A stretch of 64,000 bases of DNA. Source: Nocardioidaceae bacterium SCSIO 66511. GTDB taxonomy: Bacteria; Actinomycetota; Actinomycetes; Propionibacteriales; Nocardioidaceae. The DNA lies in assembly GCA_023100825.1 (NCBI GenBank), contig CP095846.1:868001-932000 (forward strand), written 5' to 3'. Below the pieces are notes generated by a model that was not told the DNA's origin, did no database searches, and saw nothing but the letters and a program-made list of their open reading frames with translations. Made by a program: the position numbers and the translations under genes. Numbering within the stretch: the stretch's first letter is position 1; every line of letters starts with the position of its first letter. This document shows positions 4,935 through 48,274 of this stretch, in pieces.

Positions 4935-6305
4935 TTGACTCTGCAAGACAGCACTATGCCCGTTTCCGACCGTACGGAGCCTCGTCCGCTCGACTTCGCC
5001 GAGCTCGGCGTGCGCGCGGAGCTCGTATCCGAGCTCGCCGCACAGGGGATGAGCTCGGCGTTCCCGATCCAGGCCGCGACACTGCCCGACTCGCTCGCCG
5101 GGAGGGACGTTCTCGGCCGTGGGCGTACCGGCAGCGGTAAGACGATCGCGTTCGCGATCCCGACTCTCAGCCGGCTCGCCGCATCGGGTCGCCGCCCTCG
5201 CAAGGGCGAGCCCCGCGCTCTGATCCTCGTACCGACCCGTGAGCTGGCCGCTCAGGTCGCGTCGACGATCATGCCGCTCGCGCAGAGCCTGCGGCTGCGC
5301 ACGATGACCGTCTACGGCGGGGTGAGCCAGAACCCGCAGGTCGACAAGCTGCGCGCCGGCGTCGACGTCTGTATCGCGACGCCGGGACGTCTCGAGGACC
5401 TGATCGGTCAGGGGCACTGCCGGCTGTCGCAGGTCGACGTGACGGTGCTGGACGAAGCCGACCACATGGCCGACCTCGGCTTCCTCCCGGTCGTCAAGCG
5501 CATCCTGGACCAGACGCCGCGTACGGCCCAGCGGCTGCTGTTCTCGGCCACTCTCGACAACGGCATCGACAAGCTGGTCAAGCGGTACCTCACCGATCCG
5601 GTGACGCATTCGGTCGACAGCGAGACATCGCATGTGCCGCAGATGGAGCATCACGCGTTCGTCGTGGACCGCGGCAACAAGGCGGAGGTCGTACGAAGGC
5701 TCGTCTCCGGTCGTGGCCGGACCCTTGCGTTCGCGCGTACCAAGCACGGAGCCAGGGCGCTCGCCCGCAAGCTGACCGCTGCGGGCATTCCGGCGGTCGA
5801 CCTGCACGGAAACCTGAGCCAGGGAGCGCGGCAGCGCAACCTCGCGGCATTCGGCGACGGTCACGCCCGGGTGCTCGTCGCGACCGACATCGCTGCGCGA
5901 GGCATCCACGTGGACGACGTCACGCTTGTCGTACATGTCGATCCGCCGAGCGAGCACAAGGCGTACCTCCACCGGTCGGGCCGTACGGCGCGAGCGGGCG
6001 CTAGCGGGCGGGTCGTGACGGTCGTGACGCACGAACAGCGACGCGACGTACGCCAGCTGATGCGGCGGGCGTCGATCAAACCGACCATCGCGATGATCGA
6101 GCCGGAATCCCCGCAGATCACCGAGCTCACGGGTCCGCCCGCCGAGTACGTCGATCCAGCGACCGTTGCGCGGTCGGCTCCGGGCGGCGGATCACAGGGC
6201 GGCGGTCGCAACCGCAATAGGAACCGGAATCGCAATCGAAACCGCAACCGGCGGGGAAGCACTGGTCGGGGTACGGCGAGTCGGGGTAATTCGCGCCGGG
6301 GCTGA
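4935..6305 (+). CDS. DEAD-box RNA helicase with Arg-Asn repeat tail
   Basis: A 456-residue protein if started at TTG 4935, where GAGGGA lies five bases upstream. Other in-frame starts are 4863 and ATG 4956. All core motifs are present: Q-motif region FPIQ, TGSGKT (65-70), PTRELA (100-105), TPGR (149-152), DEAD (173-176), SAT (204-206) and HRSGRTARAG (346-355). The last 30 or so residues are a Gly spacer followed by seven alternating Arg-Asn pairs and an Arg/Gly/Ser end. This is a basic disordered tail of the sort that tethers helicases such as RhlE/CsdA to RNA. It probably remodels rRNA or mRNA structure. Confidence 0.9.
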   Translation: MTLQDSTMPVSDRTEPRPLDFAELGVRAELVSELAAQGMSSAFPIQAATLPDSLAGRDVLGRGRTGSGKTIAFAIPTLSRLAASGRRPRKGEPRALILVPTRELAAQVASTIMPLAQSLRLRTMTVYGGVSQNPQVDKLRAGVDVCIATPGRLEDLIGQGHCRLSQVDVTVLDEADHMADLGFLPVVKRILDQTPRTAQRLLFSATLDNGIDKLVKRYLTDPVTHSVDSETSHVPQMEHHAFVVDRGNKAEVVRRLVSGRGRTLAFARTKHGARALARKLTAAGIPAVDLHGNLSQGARQRNLAAFGDGHARVLVATDIAARGIHVDDVTLVVHVDPPSEHKAYLHRSGRTARAGASGRVVTVVTHEQRRDVRQLMRRASIKPTIAMIEPESPQITELTGPPAEYVDPATVARSAPGGGSQGGGRNRNRNRNRNRNRNRRGSTGRGTASRGNSRRG

Positions 6306-6333
6306 TGGCCGCTCGGGGTTGCGCGTCTTCTGT

Positions 6334-6755
6334 GCGACTACTCGGCTGCCCGATTCGGCTGCGTCGTCGGCTTCCCCGCCCGCTTCGGCTGGGCAAAAGA
6401 CGCGGCGACGCGGGAGCCGCAGCTACGTAGCTCGGTTGCTTGCCGGCTTTCCCGATCTGGTCGGCATTTGCGGGGTCGGTCGATGGTGGTTTACCAAGTA
6501 AACATGGTGAAGCACCGCTTTGCATGGCAGGGACACCGTGCAAGGTGACACCTTGCCGTGCCCGTTGGTACGCCCGTGGCCGCCGGTACGGATGTGACAA
6601 CGAAACCGAACGTTACCCCGATCCCATATTAAGGTGGCGGAAGGCCGTCAATCGGCCGAACCGACGTGGCGGCTGCGCGCGTCGCCGCGTCTTTTGCCCA
6701 GCCCGAAGCAGCGGGAAAGCCGACGGCGGTGAGGACCGTAGTAGCGGGTAGTCGC
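6334..6755. mobile_element. Candidate non-autonomous inverted-repeat element (MITE-like)
   Basis: This fills most of the 490 bp gap between the helicase stop and the thioesterase gene. A left arm (6334-6427) and right arm (6662-6755) are inverted copies of about 94 bp. The inner core GCGTCGCCGCGTCTTTTGCC and the bases after it are identical over about 25 bp; the outer ends share GCGACTAC. The interior holds the multi-hairpin repeat that recurs at 28508. No protein gene is convincing inside, so any movement would need enzymes in trans. I could not identify a clear target-site duplication. Confidence 0.55.
6441..6583 (-). repeat. Multi-hairpin intergenic repeat, copy 1 (family 1)
   Basis: Read on the minus strand, this matches 28508-28650 along its whole length of about 140 bp, with indels and substitutions. 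Conserved blocks include GGGCACGGCA, TTGCACGGTGTCCCTGCC, CACCATGT-TACTTGGT and a GCCGGCAAG end. In this copy one stem has a mismatch (CCATGCAA instead of CCGTGCAA). It sits at the centre of the inverted-repeat element 6334-6755. Confidence 0.75.
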
Positions 6756-6795
6756 CGAAGCAGCAAGGAAAGCCGGCAGCCGCCCGGCACAGCAA

Positions 6796-7209
6796 CTACG
6801 CCGTACGACCCACCCCCAGGACCGCTTGTGTCTGTGTCACCTGTGCGACAAGGCGATCCTGTGCGTCGGTGAGGCTCGTCTGTACGACGATGGTGGTGCG
6901 ACCCCGGTGTAAAGGCCGAGCGGATGCGATCACGGTCCCTTCCCGTACCGCCCGGAGCAGTTGGGTGTTCGAGGAGGTCGTGGCGGTCGACGCGCCCTCG
7001 GGGAGGTTCAGGAAGGCGCATACGGCGCCGATCGTGTCACCGAGTGACATGAGTGACCCGCCGTGCAGGATGCCGCCGGCGGTGCACAGCGACTCGTCCC
7101 AGTCCAGATGACCGACGACCCGATCGGCGTCGGCCACGTCGACGACGATCCCGAGCCGGCGCGCGTACGGCATCGCGTCGACGAGGTCCGCGATCGAGAA
7201 GTCGGCCAT
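6796..7209 (-). CDS. PaaI-family hotdog-fold thioesterase
   Basis: A 137-residue single hotdog domain. The conserved HGGSLMSLGDT helix lies at residues 49-59, with the catalytic-type Asp and Thr at its end. The second half carries the beta strands typical of the PaaI/YdiI/MenI group, which hydrolyse acyl-CoA thioesters. MADFSIADL at 7209 is chosen over an upstream in-frame start, which would run into the neighbouring gene. The substrate is unknown. A DHNA-CoA thioesterase role would suit the menaquinone genes 3 kb away, but it is only one option. It is probably co-transcribed with the membrane protein ending at 7223. Confidence 0.8.
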   Translation of the reverse strand: MADFSIADLVDAMPYARRLGIVVDVADADRVVGHLDWDESLCTAGGILHGGSLMSLGDTIGAVCAFLNLPEGASTATTSSNTQLLRAVREGTVIASARPLHRGRTTIVVQTSLTDAQDRLVAQVTQTQAVLGVGRTA

Positions 7210-9318: not shown

Positions 9319-9327
9319 GGCGGAGCA

Positions 9328-9386
9328 GAGTTCGCGGACTTCTCGTTGTTTTCGGCGCTCCGCAGCACCGAAAAGTCCGCGAACTC
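9328..9386 (+). repeat. 59 bp hairpin repeat, copy 1 (family 2)
   Basis: The perfect 14 bp arms GAGTTCGCGGACTT and AAGTCCGCGAACTC flank a loop of about 31 bases. About 52 of 59 positions match 48081-48139. It lies exactly between the convergent stops of the SGNH hydrolase and menF, where it could act as a two-way terminator. Confidence 0.8.
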
Positions 9387-9395
9387 TTCAGTACG

Positions 9396-10646
9396 TCAGC
9401 CGCCGAGCGAGTCGCGTACGGGGATCAGCTTGGCCTGGCTCTCGGCGAGCTCGGCCTGCGGGTCGGAGTCGGCGACGATGCCGCAGCCGGCGTAGAGACG
9501 TACGGTGTCACCGCAGACGCTGGCCGATCGAAGGGCGATGCCCCACTCGCCATCGCCGTTGCCGTCGATCCAGCCGACCGGGCCTGCGTAGCGGCCGCGG
9601 TCCATGCCCTCGATCTCGGCGATCAGGTCGACCGCGGTGGCGGTCGGGGTGCCGCCGACTGCGGCCGAGGGGTGAAGCGCGGCCGCGAGTCCCAAGGACG
9701 AGGTCGCGTCGTCGATCACGCCCGCAACGTCGGTTGCGAGGTGCATGACGTTCGGTAGATGGAGTACGAACGGAGACTCGGGCACGTTCATGCTCGAACA
9801 ATGCGGAGCGAGCGACTCGGCGACGGAGCGAACGGCGTACTCATGCTCCTCGAGGTCTTTGCTCGATCGGGCCAGTGAAGCGGCGAGCCGCAGGTCGTGT
9901 GCGTCGTCTCCGGTGCGCCGGATCGTGCCGGCGAGCACGCGCGAGGTGACGAGGCCGCGTTCGCGGCGTACGAGCATCTCCGGCGTGGCGCCGAACAGTC
10001 CGTCTACATGGAACGTCCAGCAGGCCGCGTAGCGATCGGCGAGACGCTGCAACGGCCAACGTACGTCGAGCGGGGTCGGTGTTTCGGCAACGAGGTCACG
10101 TGCGAGCACGACCTTGTCGAGGTCGCCGGCCTGGATGCGGCGTACGCCGTCTGCGACAACGAGCTCCCACTCGGCGCCGGACATCGAGCCGTCGGCGAAG
10201 GTGACGTCGGTCGGCCGCTCGGGTTCGTGGGTACGAAGGTCCGGCGGAGTGGCGAGCGCGCCGGAGCTGACGGTTGTGATCCAGCAGGAGTCGCCGCGGC
10301 GACCGACGATGACGCTCGGCACGACGAGCGCCGACTCCCCAGGGGAGTCGGCGAAGGCAAAGGAACCGAAGGCGACGAGCCCCGAGCCCGGCAGCCGGAC
10401 CTCGTCGCGGATGACGGCGCGCGTCGCGAGGTCGTTCCACCAGGAGTCGGCCTCCGCGAACCTGTTCGCGCCGGACGGGTTGATGGCCGTCGCGCGGCCC
10501 CACCCGACGATCCCGTCGGTGTGGTGAACCCACGCGAGCGACTCGTCGCGGGGGAGGAGGGCGAGTAGCGGGCCGGGGTCGTCGATCGGAACGCTTCGCA
10601 CCACGAGCGGACTCGTGTGCGGAGTCGATCCGGCAAGTTCGGTCAC
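9396..10646 (-). CDS. menF: Isochorismate synthase (MenF/DhbC type)
   Basis: A 416-residue chorismate-binding enzyme. The C-terminal two thirds hold the family landmarks: LARDLVAETP, the LAGTIRRTGDD stretch, SSKDLEEHEYAVRSVAE, ALHPSAAVGGTP and the metal-binding EIEGMDRGRYAGPVGW. It converts chorismate to isochorismate, the first step of the classical menaquinone route. The start is set at GTG 10646, because longer in-frame options run into menG, which is divergent. No Shine-Dalgarno sequence precedes it, so a leaderless message is plausible. A siderophore-type isochorismate synthase is the alternative, but the menG and nuo context favours menaquinone. Confidence 0.88.
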   Translation of the reverse strand: MTELAGSTPHTSPLVVRSVPIDDPGPLLALLPRDESLAWVHHTDGIVGWGRATAINPSGANRFAEADSWWNDLATRAVIRDEVRLPGSGLVAFGSFAFADSPGESALVVPSVIVGRRGDSCWITTVSSGALATPPDLRTHEPERPTDVTFADGSMSGAEWELVVADGVRRIQAGDLDKVVLARDLVAETPTPLDVRWPLQRLADRYAACWTFHVDGLFGATPEMLVRRERGLVTSRVLAGTIRRTGDDAHDLRLAASLARSSKDLEEHEYAVRSVAESLAPHCSSMNVPESPFVLHLPNVMHLATDVAGVIDDATSSLGLAAALHPSAAVGGTPTATAVDLIAEIEGMDRGRYAGPVGWIDGNGDGEWGIALRSASVCGDTVRLYAGCGIVADSDPQAELAESQAKLIPVRDSLGG

Positions 10647-27442: not shown

Positions 27443-28435
27443 GTGTCGTCCACGTTTGGCGTGACCATGACCGACGACGCCTTCGAGGCGCGCGTACGCG
27501 GTCGGCTCGACTCCGTCGAGCAGGCGCTCACCGATGCGGCGGCCACCGACGAGGCGTTCATCGCCGAAGCCGCGACCCATCTGTTGCGCGCGGGCGGCAA
27601 ACGGTTTCGGCCGTTACTCGTCGTGCTGACCGCTGAGTTCGGCGATCCGGTCGCCGAGGGTGTGGTGCCCGCCGCACTCGTCGTCGAGTTGACCCATCTG
27701 GCGACGCTGTACCACGACGATGTGATGGATGAAGCATCGCTTCGGCGCGGAGCCGAGAGCGCGAACGCGCGCTGGGACAACTCGATCGCGATCCTCACCG
27801 GTGACTACCTGTTCGCCCGGGCCTCGCATGTCGTCGCAGATCTCGGACCGGATGCCGTGCGCATCCAGGCCGAGACGTTCTCCCGCCTCGTCCAGGGTCA
27901 GATCCGAGAGACGATGGGTCCGCGCGACGGCGAGCAGCCGCTCGAGCACTACCTGTCGGTCGTCTCGGACAAGACCGGGTCACTCATCGCGACGTCCGCG
28001 CGCTTCGGCGCCATGATGGCGGGCGCATCGGAGTCGGTGCAACAGCGGTTGACCGAGTTCGGCGAGCGCATCGGATCCGCGTTCCAGCTCAGCGACGACA
28101 TCATCGACGTCGCAAGTGACTCACACGACTCCGGCAAGACCCCGGGCACCGATCTGCGCGAGGGTGTGCCCACGCTGCCCACGTTGATCGCCCGGTCGTC
28201 GGACTCACCGCAGGATGCACGGTTGCGTGAACTTCTGTCGGGGCCCATCTCCAGCGACGCTGACCATGCCGAAGCACTCGCGTTGCTTCGCGAGCACTCG
28301 GCACTCGACGAGGCGCGAGCCTTCGTACGAGGCCGTGCCGATGAGGCGCGAGCCCTGCTCGCGGATCTGCCGCCCGGCCACGCTCGCGACGCCCTCGAGT
28401 CGCTCTGCGACACGGTCGTCACCCGCATCGCCTGA
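27443..28435 (+). CDS. Long-chain trans-polyprenyl diphosphate synthase (menaquinone side chain)
   Basis: A 330-residue prenyltransferase with two Asp-rich motifs, DDVMD (92-96) and DDIID (218-222), plus GGKRFRP (51-57) and a DKTGSLIATSARFGA stretch. It condenses isopentenyl diphosphate onto an allylic primer. Residues before the first Asp motif (ELTHLATLYHDD) are of the long-chain (hepta- to decaprenyl) type. GTG 27443 is chosen because GAGGAG stands just upstream. Its place right behind nuoN suggests that it makes the menaquinone tail; the chain length cannot be read with confidence. Confidence 0.88.
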   Translation: MSSTFGVTMTDDAFEARVRGRLDSVEQALTDAAATDEAFIAEAATHLLRAGGKRFRPLLVVLTAEFGDPVAEGVVPAALVVELTHLATLYHDDVMDEASLRRGAESANARWDNSIAILTGDYLFARASHVVADLGPDAVRIQAETFSRLVQGQIRETMGPRDGEQPLEHYLSVVSDKTGSLIATSARFGAMMAGASESVQQRLTEFGERIGSAFQLSDDIIDVASDSHDSGKTPGTDLREGVPTLPTLIARSSDSPQDARLRELLSGPISSDADHAEALALLREHSALDEARAFVRGRADEARALLADLPPGHARDALESLCDTVVTRIA

Positions 28436-28507
28436 CGAGGGTTCGCAGGGTCCCCGCCGCACGGGTCGGAGCAGGGGTGGCCGAGTCAGTCGACTCCTGC
28501 CACGTCA

Positions 28508-28650
28508 GCCACGGACGTACCTATGGGCACGGCACCACGTCACTTTGCACGGTGTCCCTGCCGTGCAAGGTGGAGTTCCACCATGTCTACTTGGTGAACC
28601 ACCACCCACCGACCCGGCAAGAGCCAGCCGAATCGGGGACGCCGGCAAGG
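28508..28650 (+). repeat. Multi-hairpin intergenic repeat, copy 2 (family 1)
   Basis: Three dyads in a row are visible. TTGCACGG-TGTCCCTG-CCGTGCAA is at 28545-28568, GGTGGA-GT-TCCACC at 28569-28582, and CACCA-TGTCTACT-TGGTG at 28579-28596. Dyads two and three share bases, so the strand could switch folds. The unit matches the minus strand of 6441-6583. Confidence 0.75.
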
Positions 28651-28716
28651 AGTCCGAGCCCGCAGCCGGTGCACTTGGTGCGACGAATGCCGAGAGGCCC
28701 TACGTACAACGACGAA

Positions 28717-28749
28717 GCGGCCGGCGCGAACCACGTTCGCGCCGGCCGC
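28717..28749 (-). terminator. Hairpin terminator after the PhoX-like gene
   Basis: The perfect 14 bp stem GCGGCCGGCGCGAA / TTCGCGCCGGCCGC has a five-base loop (CCACG). It lies 16 bases beyond the stop of the minus-strand PhoX gene. It may also stop readthrough from nuo and the polyprenyl synthase gene. There is no long T tract, as is usual in actinobacteria. Confidence 0.75.
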
Positions 28750-28764
28750 CTCAGCAGCGTCGGG

Positions 28765-30828
28765 TCAGCGACCGATGCGCTGGTTGTCGATGCGGTACGT
28801 GCAGATGACCGACGGCCGCGGGAAGCGGTCGGTGTGCGGCCACGTCGAGGTCGGCTCCTCGAAGGTCGCGCCGTCGGACTCACCCGGATGCTGCACGGCG
28901 GCGAACACCGTGAGGCCGTCCTCCGATACCAGCGGCCCGCACGTCTCGGCGGCGACCGGAACGGTCAGGAACTGACGTACGTTGCCGCGCTCGCTGCCCC
29001 GTGTCGGTACGGCGAACATCCCGTCGTTGGACCCGAGCGCGTTACCGTCGGTCGAGATCCACAGATTGCCGGCAGGGTCGAACGCCACGTTGTCCGGGCA
29101 GGAGATCGGGCTGACCTGCTCCTTCGGGAACCCGCCGAAGTACGTCTCGGGTGCCTCCGGATCGCCGCAGACCAGGAACAGGTTCCACCGGAACGCCGTC
29201 GCAGCCGCGTCGTTGCCACGCTCGACCCACTCGAGTACGTACCCGTTGCGGTTGCCCGATGCGCTCGTCAGCGGTGCATCGAGCGATTCGCGAACCATTG
29301 AGGTGTCCAGCGGGTTCGCCTCGTCGACGGGCTGGTCCTTGCCGCGGTTCGAGTTGTTGGTCAGCGCCGCGTACACCCGGCCGGTGACGGGGTTGCGCTC
29401 GATGTCCTCGGGGCGGTCCATCTTCGTCGGCGACACCGAGTCGGCCGCGAGCCGCGTGTCGATCAGCACGTCGGCGACGGTCATCCCGTCCACGTACGAC
29501 TCCGTCGCGGAGGTGAGTGCGATCCACTCACCGGTGCCGTCGTACTCATCGTCGTCGAGCCCGTCGCCGGTGAACTTCGCGACGTACAGCGTGCCGTCGT
29601 CCAGCAGGCCGAGGTTGTGCTCGCGAGCCTTCGCGGCCTTGCCCTTGCGGAACTTCTGCCTGGACACGAACTTGTAGATGTAGTCGCCGCGCTCGTCGTC
29701 GCCCATGTAGACGACGACGCGGCCGTCCTTGCTGAGCGAGGTCGTCGCACCTTCGTGCTTCATCCGGCCGAGCATCGTACGCTTGCGCGGCTTGGCCTTC
29801 GGGTGCTGCGGGTCGATCTCGACGATGTAGCCGAACCGGAACGGCTCGTTCGGCTCCTTGGTCAGATCGAACCGGTCGTCGACATCGCCCCAGCCGCGGC
29901 CCTCGCCGCTCAGTCCGTACCGGTCGTAGCTGTCGGCATGCTTCGGGTCGAGGTCGCCGGATGCGTCGAAGTAGCCGTTGAAGTTCTCCTCGCCGGACAG
30001 GAACGTGCCCCACGGCGTCATGCCGCCCGAGCAGTTGCCGATCGTGCCGCGCGCGGTGCGACCCTTCGGGTTCGCGCTCGTCCGCATCCGCTTGTCACCG
30101 GCGGCCGGGCCGGTCAGCTGCATGGGAGTGTCTGCGGTGATCCGTCGGTTCAGCTTGGTCTTACCGACCGGACGCTGCTTCCACGCGCCGTCGCGGCGGC
30201 CACGCTCGATCTCGACGACGCTGAACCCGTGTGCGGCCATCTCGATGCGCTTCTGGGTGTCCGCGTCGTACCAATCGGTCGGGAACATCAGCTCGGGGTC
30301 GGTGTACTCGTTGTTGACGCCGAGGATGGCGCGGTTCTTCTCACCCTGGACGGGGAGTACGCCGACGTAGTCGCAGTTGTAGCCGAACTGCTGTGCCTGT
30401 GCCTCGGGCGACTGCTTGTACACGTTGAACCGTGGCGCACCCGGCACGACCCGGTCGCCCCACGAGATGATGACGTCGTAGTCGTACCCGGCGGGCACCG
30501 TCACGTTGTCGCGTACGTTCGGGCGTACCGGCCGGAACGCGAGCTCTGCGGCGGCACTGCCCTTACCCGGCTTGCCCGGCTTGGCAACCGCCGCGGCCGC
30601 CGGGCCGGCGAGGGTTGCGCCGAGACCAACGGTCACCGACGCCGCCGCGCCACCTCGGAGGAGCGACCTGCGCGCAACCACGGAGGCGAGCACATTCGAC
30701 ATGTGCTCGTTGTCGGATTTGTTCGGGATCGGCTTATCGCATGCGTCGCCACAGCGGTAGTGGCAGGTCATCGCGCTTCGAGACCCATGCGGGCCGGTCG
30801 GGTTGATCAACGGCAGCAGTCGCGGCAT
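28765..30828 (-). CDS. PhoX-like phosphatase, Tat-exported (DUF839)
   Basis: A 687-residue protein. A conserved N-terminal Cys motif (TCHYRCGDAC, residues 21-30) precedes a twin-arginine signal ARRSLLRGG (Arg53-Arg54) and Ala-rich hydrophobic stretch. The mature part shows PhoX-family segments (GVNNEYTDPELMF, NCSGGMTPWGTFLSGEENF, YKFVSRQKFRKG, RPEDIERNPVTGRVYAALTNNS). PhoX enzymes are Ca/Fe-dependent alkaline phosphatases folded as beta-propellers and act outside the cell. ATG 30828 is chosen for GGAG seven bases upstream; a TTG lies at 30840. A possible PHO box precedes it. Confidence 0.85.
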   Translation of the reverse strand: MPRLLPLINPTGPHGSRSAMTCHYRCGDACDKPIPNKSDNEHMSNVLASVVARRSLLRGGAAASVTVGLGATLAGPAAAAVAKPGKPGKGSAAAELAFRPVRPNVRDNVTVPAGYDYDVIISWGDRVVPGAPRFNVYKQSPEAQAQQFGYNCDYVGVLPVQGEKNRAILGVNNEYTDPELMFPTDWYDADTQKRIEMAAHGFSVVEIERGRRDGAWKQRPVGKTKLNRRITADTPMQLTGPAAGDKRMRTSANPKGRTARGTIGNCSGGMTPWGTFLSGEENFNGYFDASGDLDPKHADSYDRYGLSGEGRGWGDVDDRFDLTKEPNEPFRFGYIVEIDPQHPKAKPRKRTMLGRMKHEGATTSLSKDGRVVVYMGDDERGDYIYKFVSRQKFRKGKAAKAREHNLGLLDDGTLYVAKFTGDGLDDDEYDGTGEWIALTSATESYVDGMTVADVLIDTRLAADSVSPTKMDRPEDIERNPVTGRVYAALTNNSNRGKDQPVDEANPLDTSMVRESLDAPLTSASGNRNGYVLEWVERGNDAAATAFRWNLFLVCGDPEAPETYFGGFPKEQVSPISCPDNVAFDPAGNLWISTDGNALGSNDGMFAVPTRGSERGNVRQFLTVPVAAETCGPLVSEDGLTVFAAVQHPGESDGATFEEPTSTWPHTDRFPRPSVICTYRIDNQRIGR

Positions 30829-37604: not shown

Positions 37605-37690
37605 GAACCGCACCCCCGCCCGCTGGGCCGCACGTTTCAGCCCCTATTTTTGCGATTTCGGGGCCGGAACGTGCGGCTCACGGGGCGGTG
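37605..37690 (+). repeat. Long-armed intergenic repeat, copy 1 (family 3)
   Basis: The arms GGGCCGCACGTTTCAGCCCC (37625-37644) and GGGGCCGGAACGTGCGGCTC (37660-37679) enclose an AT-rich loop; CCGCACCCCCGCC and GGGGCGG extend them outward. It matches 45672-45752. It lies directly after the yajQ stop and before korA on the same strand, so it could separate those two units. Confidence 0.75.
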
Positions 37691-45671: not shown

Positions 45672-45752
45672 CCACACCCCCGCTGGGCCGCACGTTTCTG
45701 CCCCGATTTCGCCGGAATGAGGGCCGAAACGCGCGGCCCAGTGGGGGTGCGG
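45672..45752 (+). repeat. Long-armed intergenic repeat, copy 2 (family 3)
   Basis: An inverted repeat with 30-base arms (45674-45703 and 45721-45750), 26 of 30 positions complementary; the core is CGCTGGGCCGCACGTTTC. It fills the entire gap between two convergent stops and is homologous to 37605-37690. Confidence 0.8.
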
Positions 45753-48013: not shown

Positions 48014-48080
48014 GTGCCTATCGTTGCACTGCGGTTGAGCGCACGCTACGCGGTATCCCGCTTGCCGGACCCGTCGTCGA

Positions 48081-48139
48081 GAGTTTGCGGACTTCTCGTT
48101 GTCGTCGACGCTCGGCAGCACCTGAAAGTCCGCGAACTC
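48081..48139 (+). repeat. 59 bp hairpin repeat, copy 2 (family 2)
   Basis: The arms GAGTTTGCGGACTT and AAGTCCGCGAACTC pair with one G-T wobble around a 31-base loop. Same length and orientation as 9328-9386. This copy is not between convergent genes: it lies upstream of aspC and of tRNA-Trp. Confidence 0.8.
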
Positions 48140-48274
48140 CGCCCGACGTACGCCTGAGTTCGACGGCGACCGCCTGCTCCCGTACACTCGTCACGCGGTG
48201 GATTTCCACGCTTGGTCGTCATGCCCTCACCAACACCGGTGTTGCATGGTCGCGCCGCGCGCCGGAACCGCCAT

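Follow-up and report, generated by a model that had tools for sequence, protein, structure and literature searches.

The detection of two similar stretches of about 140 bp, lying in opposite orientation within 64,000 nucleotides of actinobacterial DNA (hereafter the window), raised the question of what such repeats are and how they came to be there. A preliminary description of the locus had left three options, namely a REP-like element, an RNA motif or a very small conserved gene. Both copies could be confirmed. Their identity is about 80%, and as a pair they head the list of inverted repeats in the window, with a length of 147 nt, 80% complementarity and arms at 6439–6585 and 28503–28649. 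The block TTGCACGGTGTCCCTGCC, described earlier as conserved, is present in exact form at 28545–28562 on the plus strand and at 6526–6543 on the minus strand; with up to three mismatches it matches the window twice, against 0.05 expected matches, and none of 100 shuffles gave two. The three dyads were also recognised. In the focal copy (28508–28650) we find hairpin B at 28545–28568 (TTGCAYGG-N8-CCRTGCAA), a diverged hairpin A of the TTYACCA..TGGTRAA type at 28576–28599 and, as third dyad, an alternative arm at 28515–28540, a similar arm being present in the sister species. The alternative folds that had been suggested are indeed possible, because the dyad GGTGGAGTTCCACC, located between B and A, overlaps the extended stems of both.

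The focal copy reads on the minus strand in the orientation of the covariance model R1 presented below (S strand); it lacks outer arms and is a truncated composite. It lies in a slot of 329 bp (28436–28764) between two convergent stop codons, those of a polyprenyl synthetase gene (27461–28435, plus strand) and of a PhoX phosphatase gene (28765–30828, minus strand). The second copy (6440–6579, S strand plus) contains hairpin A (6490–6511, TTTACCA..TGGTGAA) and hairpin B (6520–6543) and is enclosed by a left outer arm AAAGACGCGGCGACGCG (6396–6412, plus strand) and an inverted right outer arm (6678–6694, minus strand), which correspond to genome positions 874396–874412 and 874678–874694 and give an outer span of 299 bp. 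Its module X occupies 6580–6677, a position where other copies have a longer module Y, and the whole composite, with its outward tails of ~56-bp units, extends over ~6309–6780, the outer ends being approximate. This copy is also located between convergent stop codons, those of a DEAD-box helicase gene (4956–6305, plus strand), which ends just upstream of the element, and of a 4HBT thioesterase gene (6796–7209, minus strand); the latter appears largely deleted in the sister species (2878230–2878370). Two other hairpin-like repeat pairs are found at gene ends in the window, one of the AGAGTTYGCGGACTT type (9327–9401 and 48080–48154) and one of the CCCGCTGGGCCGCACG type (37619–37685 and 45679–45745), the members at 9327 and 45679 being in gaps between convergent called genes. 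A search of the window against Rfam at gathering scores returned tRNAs only, the repeat copies having no family match.

We then considered the complete genome from which the window derives (G000, 4.61 Mb in one contig) and that of a sister species (G001), the only congener searched. The focal copy used as query gave at least 43 matches in G000, at least 40 of them long (40 of 110 candidates scored), and the core pattern with up to three mismatches gave 66 matches vs one for its reversed control. The model R1, built from 39 copies (42 were found, and three partial ones were excluded from the alignment, A2), returned at least 114 matches at E ≤ 0.1 and at least 82 above 60 bits, including the focal copy (896509–896648, minus strand, equivalent to window 28509–28648; 151.6 bits) and the second copy (874440–874579; 160.5 bits). 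The existence of further copies, on which the earlier reading depended, is thus established, the window pair being two of at least 82. These 82 matches above 60 bits constitute our copy set, which is a minimum, the best 150 of 2413 candidates having been scored. Among the 80 copies that were aligned, median pairwise identity is 80%, with 90% of the pairs at 70%–88% and just 4 of 3160 pairs at 93% or more; this narrow spread, read from the identities and not from a tree, is compatible with copies that arose in a single burst from one master and then decayed independently.

A larger mosaic surrounds the ~140-bp core, and where its inverted arms are intact they span ~300 or 410–450 bp. The outer arm AAAGACGCGGCGACGCG has 124 matches with up to two mismatches in G000 and many copies carry it as an inverted pair. 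Among the places listed, 35 pairs of exact arms were counted, 27 at 287–302 bp, one at 331 bp and seven at 407–449 bp, which agrees with the presence of either module X or the longer module Y in the interior. Many copies also carry tails of ~56-bp units that point outwards. Covariation within the G000 copies is weak, two-sided changes being seen in 1 of 29 predicted stem pairs, and the wobble pairs show a strand bias across copies that may be inherited from one master copy. The same copy set bears on the proposal of a very small conserved gene, which had been based on a frame common to the two window copies. Even the best frame is open in only 60 of the 82 copies, and the three classes of match length modulo 3 are filled 17/21/44, so the proposal was rejected and we give it almost no credit.

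With genes and starts taken from our own simple caller, all 82 copies are intergenic, 34 in convergent, 40 in co-directional and 8 in divergent gaps. Convergent gaps are strongly over-represented (34/82 copies vs 119/773 pairs of adjacent genes counted over 864 kb of G000; p = 1e-7); depletion from divergent gaps is not significant in this genome (p = 0.12) and orientation relative to co-directional genes is unbiased (24 vs 16, p = 0.27). Turnover between the two species is extensive. The gap that holds the focal copy measures only 8 bp in G001, and of 12 G000 sites compared with G001, four had one or no aligned flank and all eight with both flanks aligned were devoid of the element. Other hairpins occupy two of these eight element-free gaps, and a third contains a tandem array. 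Where G000 has the element 1052084, a TCGCGCTCACCGCTCCGCTCGTCCCTCGCTA-type repeat is arrayed over ~490 bp in G001 (3059865–3060359). Conversely, 3/3 G001 copies are missing from G000. No target-site duplication was readable at the compared sites, where the intergenic sequence is too diverged. One composite with arms, tails and module X was found in G001 at 968000–968950 (loci L152 and L215), and for this reason the composite form probably predates the split of the two species.

The sister species carries many compact relatives made of three consecutive hairpins, A, B, then A again or the alternative arm. Hairpin A is exemplified by GGATGTTTACCATG-TNNA-CATGGTAAACATCC, and hairpin B is the TTGCAYGG-N8-CCRTGCAA palindrome given above for the focal copy, found with up to three substitutions in 37 of the 40 G001 loci fetched. 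Placement counts refer to these 37 loci (the three without the B pattern being excluded), an element being defined as B with 42 nt on each side. None of the 37 compact copies read has the outer arms that the G000 composite carries. The gene 3′ ends that face an element are within 60 nt of it in 38 of 43 cases, 23 of 25 co-directional copies are closer to the stop than to the next start, and divergent gaps hold 3/37 copies. Since the hairpins follow stop codons so closely in this species, the RNA role envisaged at the outset is plausible in the form of a role at the 3′ end.

Stem covariation was evaluated on 56 A hairpins of G001 against 2000 shuffles, a null that ignores relatedness. Three stem positions were paired in 49, 43 and 31 hairpins vs shuffle maxima of 46, 36 and 27. 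The other seven of the ten positions stay within the shuffle maximum, five of them being nearly invariant, one lying inside the shuffle range (29, maximum 33) and the outermost falling under the mean (11 vs 23). The inner ACCATG-N4-CATGGT is conserved through the selection of the 56 hairpins, therefore only the outer positions count. The search for compensatory changes advocated earlier thus had a divided outcome, with paired stem changes in the sister species and little within the G000 copies. The G001 signal speaks for pairing being selected or corrected, without favouring RNA specifically, because the shuffles ignore relatedness and template switching can keep hairpins palindromic. A run of at least four T within 20 nt was found at 1/56 hairpins, so that a U-tract is missing from nearly all of them, and the tags GTAG and CGTC occur at the stem foot in 2/56 and 3/56, respectively. 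When seven loci with compact elements were searched against Rfam with E up to 1, no credible match to the elements was obtained. The match above cutoff in these loci was Ms_IGR-5 in L232 (2297–2508), ~790 bp from the hairpin, and a weak microRNA match, below cutoff, lies beside the L232 hairpin.

The distribution of the hairpins extends beyond these two species. With up to two mismatches, the A-type hairpin is found in 11 of 58 genomes, own included, the reversed control giving 0 in all 58; the counts are 73 in G001, 44 in G000, 18 in G036, 15 in G028, 12 in G015 and 1–3 in six others. Between genera, the inner stem changes in paired fashion, and several loci read in other genera have the order A-B-A′ or A-B with an unrelated B, often straight after a stop codon. 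As a DNA query, the composite matched G000 and G001, the remaining match being a 31-nt fragment in G002, and R1 at E ≤ 0.01 gave matches in 13/58 genomes, own included, weak outside the genus. An origin from phages or plasmids was considered and set aside, the composite having no match in the plasmid and phage collections and the exact pattern being absent from viral contigs. The exact core pattern matched the genome_contigs collection twice, in a Nocardioides soli contig and in a Methanoregulaceae MAG, and we take both matches for chance. The motif CCANGTNNACNTGG was also tried as a general site and rejected, many of its counts in 296 genomes of the phylum being near those of the reversed control. 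Its excess is by far the largest in the own genome (79 vs 3 reversed), and smaller excesses elsewhere, for example in G085 (32 vs 7) and G019 (35 vs 11), are perhaps due to a general palindrome bias.

The Y1 transposase domain (PF01797), the only transposase family searched genome-wide, was not found in G000 or G001; of the 20 genomes searched, two have it. The genomes G000 and G001 each have one gene (3288551–3289531 in G000) enclosed by a pair of inverted compact elements ~1.2 kb apart, in the same neighbourhood in both. In G028 and G036, the gene between close A hairpins again encodes a protein of this family; its neighbourhood differs, and the hairpins are of the version proper to the respective genome. 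All four loci were chosen for two hairpins ~1.2 kb apart and are therefore not an unbiased sample. The partner proteins share 74% (G001), 35% (G028) and 40% (G036) identity with that of G000. An N-terminal AbiEi_4 domain is above the Pfam cutoff in 3/3 proteins of this focal subfamily, which PADLOC AbiEi models match too, and it was matched in 0/5 homologues of the other subfamilies. In their C-terminal half, all four partner proteins share invariant residues (ES-GESR, DF-W, GEFDG--KY, EK-RED), which, by the general features of such enzymes, we take to be those of a PD-(D/E)XK nuclease. Pfam gave no nuclease match in the focal-subfamily proteins, and 4/5 homologues associated with other repeat families match REase_MTES_1575 or DUF559 below the Pfam cutoff (two of them only at E 0.02–0.05). 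The conserved residues, together with these below-cutoff matches in other subfamilies, point to a putative PD-(D/E)XK domain in the partner protein. The search for structures yielded no credible PDB relative, relatives were looked for in viral contigs and not found, and the genes called beside the partner gene included none that looked like a toxin, as judged from gene calls and not from a toxin model.

The copies that flank such genes are all of the compact form; the composite was not seen in this position. The repeats beside such genes in the two sister species belong to four different families, two of which are clearly dispersed. The hairpin of the second family (CCGCCGAGGTACG...) is itself dispersed and occurs 10 times in 400 kb of G001, always intergenic, and in 464 kb of G000 it has five intergenic occurrences and one match in a coding region, two of the hairpins counted in each genome being the gene's own flanks. 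The homologues at 2857287–2858225 in G001 and 2131088–2132020 in G000 have flanking repeats of their own, of the GACGAGAGAATCTGCAGTTG and ACACGCGAGAAGCACCACGCTG types, with few other copies in the stretches read. Among plasmids, a homologue from Collinsella aerofaciens is flanked by matching 16-bp hairpin repeats, of which no other copy was found in the plasmid collection, and three homologues from Tsukamurella tyrosinosolvens are unflanked, so that 3/4 plasmid homologues are unflanked overall.

How specific the flanking is was assessed with a scan for inverted repeats between the 300 bp before and the 300 bp after each of 1861 called genes, in 2.06 Mb from four genomes. Homologues of the partner protein take the top three scores (44, 37 and 26); they are located at 2857287–2858225 in G001, 2131088–2132020 in G000 and 2959979–2960929 in G001. 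A fourth flanked homologue (G000 955824–956783) scores 55 with the longest-ORF start and 10 with the called start. Flanking was thus observed for 4/9 homologous ORFs and not for the other five (one in G000, one in G001 and three in G023); scores of at least 18 were also reached by three other genes, including one for a GIY-YIG nuclease. Comparison of these two classes by Fisher's test gave p = 9e-9, and p = 6e-7 with called starts only (3/7). The protein of G001 2857287 had entered the HMM seeds owing to its repeats; leaving it out gives 3/8 and p = 1e-6, and counting it as an unrelated gene gives p = 2e-6. On the three stretches (1.2 Mb) fetched after the hypothesis was formed, 1/5 homologues are flanked (p = 0.014). 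An HMM without the G001 2857287 protein still recovers all nine homologues, G001 2857287 itself at E 6e-9, and the three top-scoring genes each have E 6e-9 or better with it. When only the four partner proteins were used to build the HMM, seven homologues were recovered at E < 0.02; G001 2857287 reached 0.1 and G001 2925480 was missed.

Comparison with known systems shows where the likeness to REPs holds. REPs are described as extragenic palindromes in many copies, with inverted hairpins (PMC3733652, PMC3116915); PMC3733652 reports their location between co-directional and convergent genes and RAYT genes that are flanked by repeats, and PMC3116915 reports compensatory changes and proximity to RAYT for REPINs. 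The present family agrees with the initial REP-like label in its many extragenic copies, its inverted hairpins, the compensatory stem changes of the sister species, its location at gene ends, mostly in co-directional and convergent gaps, and in having an enzyme gene flanked by repeats. It departs from the RAYT-associated type, having three hairpins per compact unit, no conserved GTAG or CGTC tag, no Y1 transposase in G000 and G001, and as partner an AbiEi-type protein with a putative PD-(D/E)XK domain. CGTC-tagged REPs are also repetitive extragenic palindromes, and according to PMC3733652 they are apparently without a dedicated transposase; here CGTC is near the stem foot in only three of the G001 hairpins. 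The partner shares its N-terminal domain with the AbiEi antitoxin family of type IV toxin–antitoxin systems but is longer, with a C-terminal nuclease-like region. Among the open-access literature matches listed, none linked AbiEi or DUF559 proteins to dispersed palindromes, which is not proof of absence.

Taken together, these observations lead us to propose that the repeats are mobile hairpins of the REP/REPIN kind, which could also serve as 3′-end signals, and that they spread by or with an AbiEi-type nuclease instead of a RAYT, a reading to which we give even chances. Each basic unit would consist of DNA hairpin A, hairpin B and, as the third in the row, A′ or the alternative arm; the composite form (core, inverted outer arms and tandem tails) would have expanded in G000 and the compact form in G001. 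Copies would persist in gene-end gaps, especially convergent ones, where they may do little harm, and the hairpins there could double as bidirectional 3′-end or terminator structures or as mRNA ends. The AbiEi-type N-terminal domain of the partner would bind the hairpin, its putative PD-(D/E)XK domain would nick or cut it, and host repair might then copy the cut hairpin to other sites. The gene unit would act in trans on solitary elements and so allow them to spread, in the way proposed for REPs and RAYT. The copy number, anatomy, placement, differences in presence between the species, stem covariation in G001 and flanking of the gene are observed; binding, cutting, movement and the 3′-end role are inferred. 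Against this proposal stand the 5/9 homologous ORFs and 3/4 plasmid homologues that are unflanked, the failure to see a target-site duplication and the lack of any composite beside such a gene; moreover, no integration chemistry is known for a nuclease alone.

Other explanations account for part of the data. The elements could be functional 3′-end structures only, serving as terminators in both directions or as stabilisers of mRNA; ordinary recombination would have duplicated them, and the flanking of nuclease genes would be coincidental. Their position close after stops in G001 and between convergent genes in G000 agrees with this, and PMC8355165 reports terminators that are hairpin clusters close to stop codons and often have no U-tract, which is not required according to that paper. 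However, terminators need no common sequence, whereas 73 G001 hairpins fit one 18-base pattern with up to two mismatches (reverse, 0); presence or absence differs at 11/11 tested sites, one gene family is repeatedly flanked, and a T-run is found at 1 of 56 hairpins, so that we regard this explanation as unlikely. A different origin, as MITEs, would imply a conventional insertion sequence with its transposase lost or encoded at another place, and the outer arms would be its terminal inverted repeats; PMC10969869 describes MITEs as short, non-coding, intergenic elements with inverted ends and many copies. The narrow classes of arm span in G000, the narrow spread of pairwise identities and the orthologous sites without an element all fit. 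Yet the 37 compact copies of G001 were read without these arms, no target-site duplication was seen and Y1 transposase, the family searched (PF01797), was not found, which makes this origin quite doubtful.

Pfam describes AbiEi_4 as a transcriptional regulator and palindromes flank the gene, as would be expected of operator sites, in which case the genome-wide copies would be a regulon. This would hardly account for the few copies in divergent gaps (8/82 in G000, 3/37 in G001), for G001 copies lying nearer to stops than to starts, for orthologous sites without an element or for inverted copies at both gene ends, and we hold it to be improbable.

The REP-like reading with a nuclease partner bears on how such families persist without a RAYT, for which the repeat-flanked nuclease gene provides a named and testable candidate. 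We more tentatively suggest, at somewhat under even chances, that hairpin-flanked AbiEi-type PD-(D/E)XK nucleases mobilise or maintain their own dispersed families of intergenic hairpins in actinobacteria, as a counterpart of the RAYT/REP system. Annotation of such proteins as AbiEi antitoxins is common. If the suggestion is true, it would provide a role for proteins so annotated (one such annotation was seen here) and would help to explain why intergenic gaps differ so strongly between two species of one genus.

A further nuclease gene emerged from the flanking scan. The GIY-YIG gene mentioned above (PF01541, E 8e-20), at 65458–65763 of G023 on the minus strand (L302, 5458–5763), is flanked by inverted copies of a repeat that contains GTCGAGCAGCGAGCG, which has 13 exact copies in 400 kb, vs 0 reversed, with 5 of 21 near matches inside called genes; gene and repeat are possibly a second nuclease–repeat partnership.
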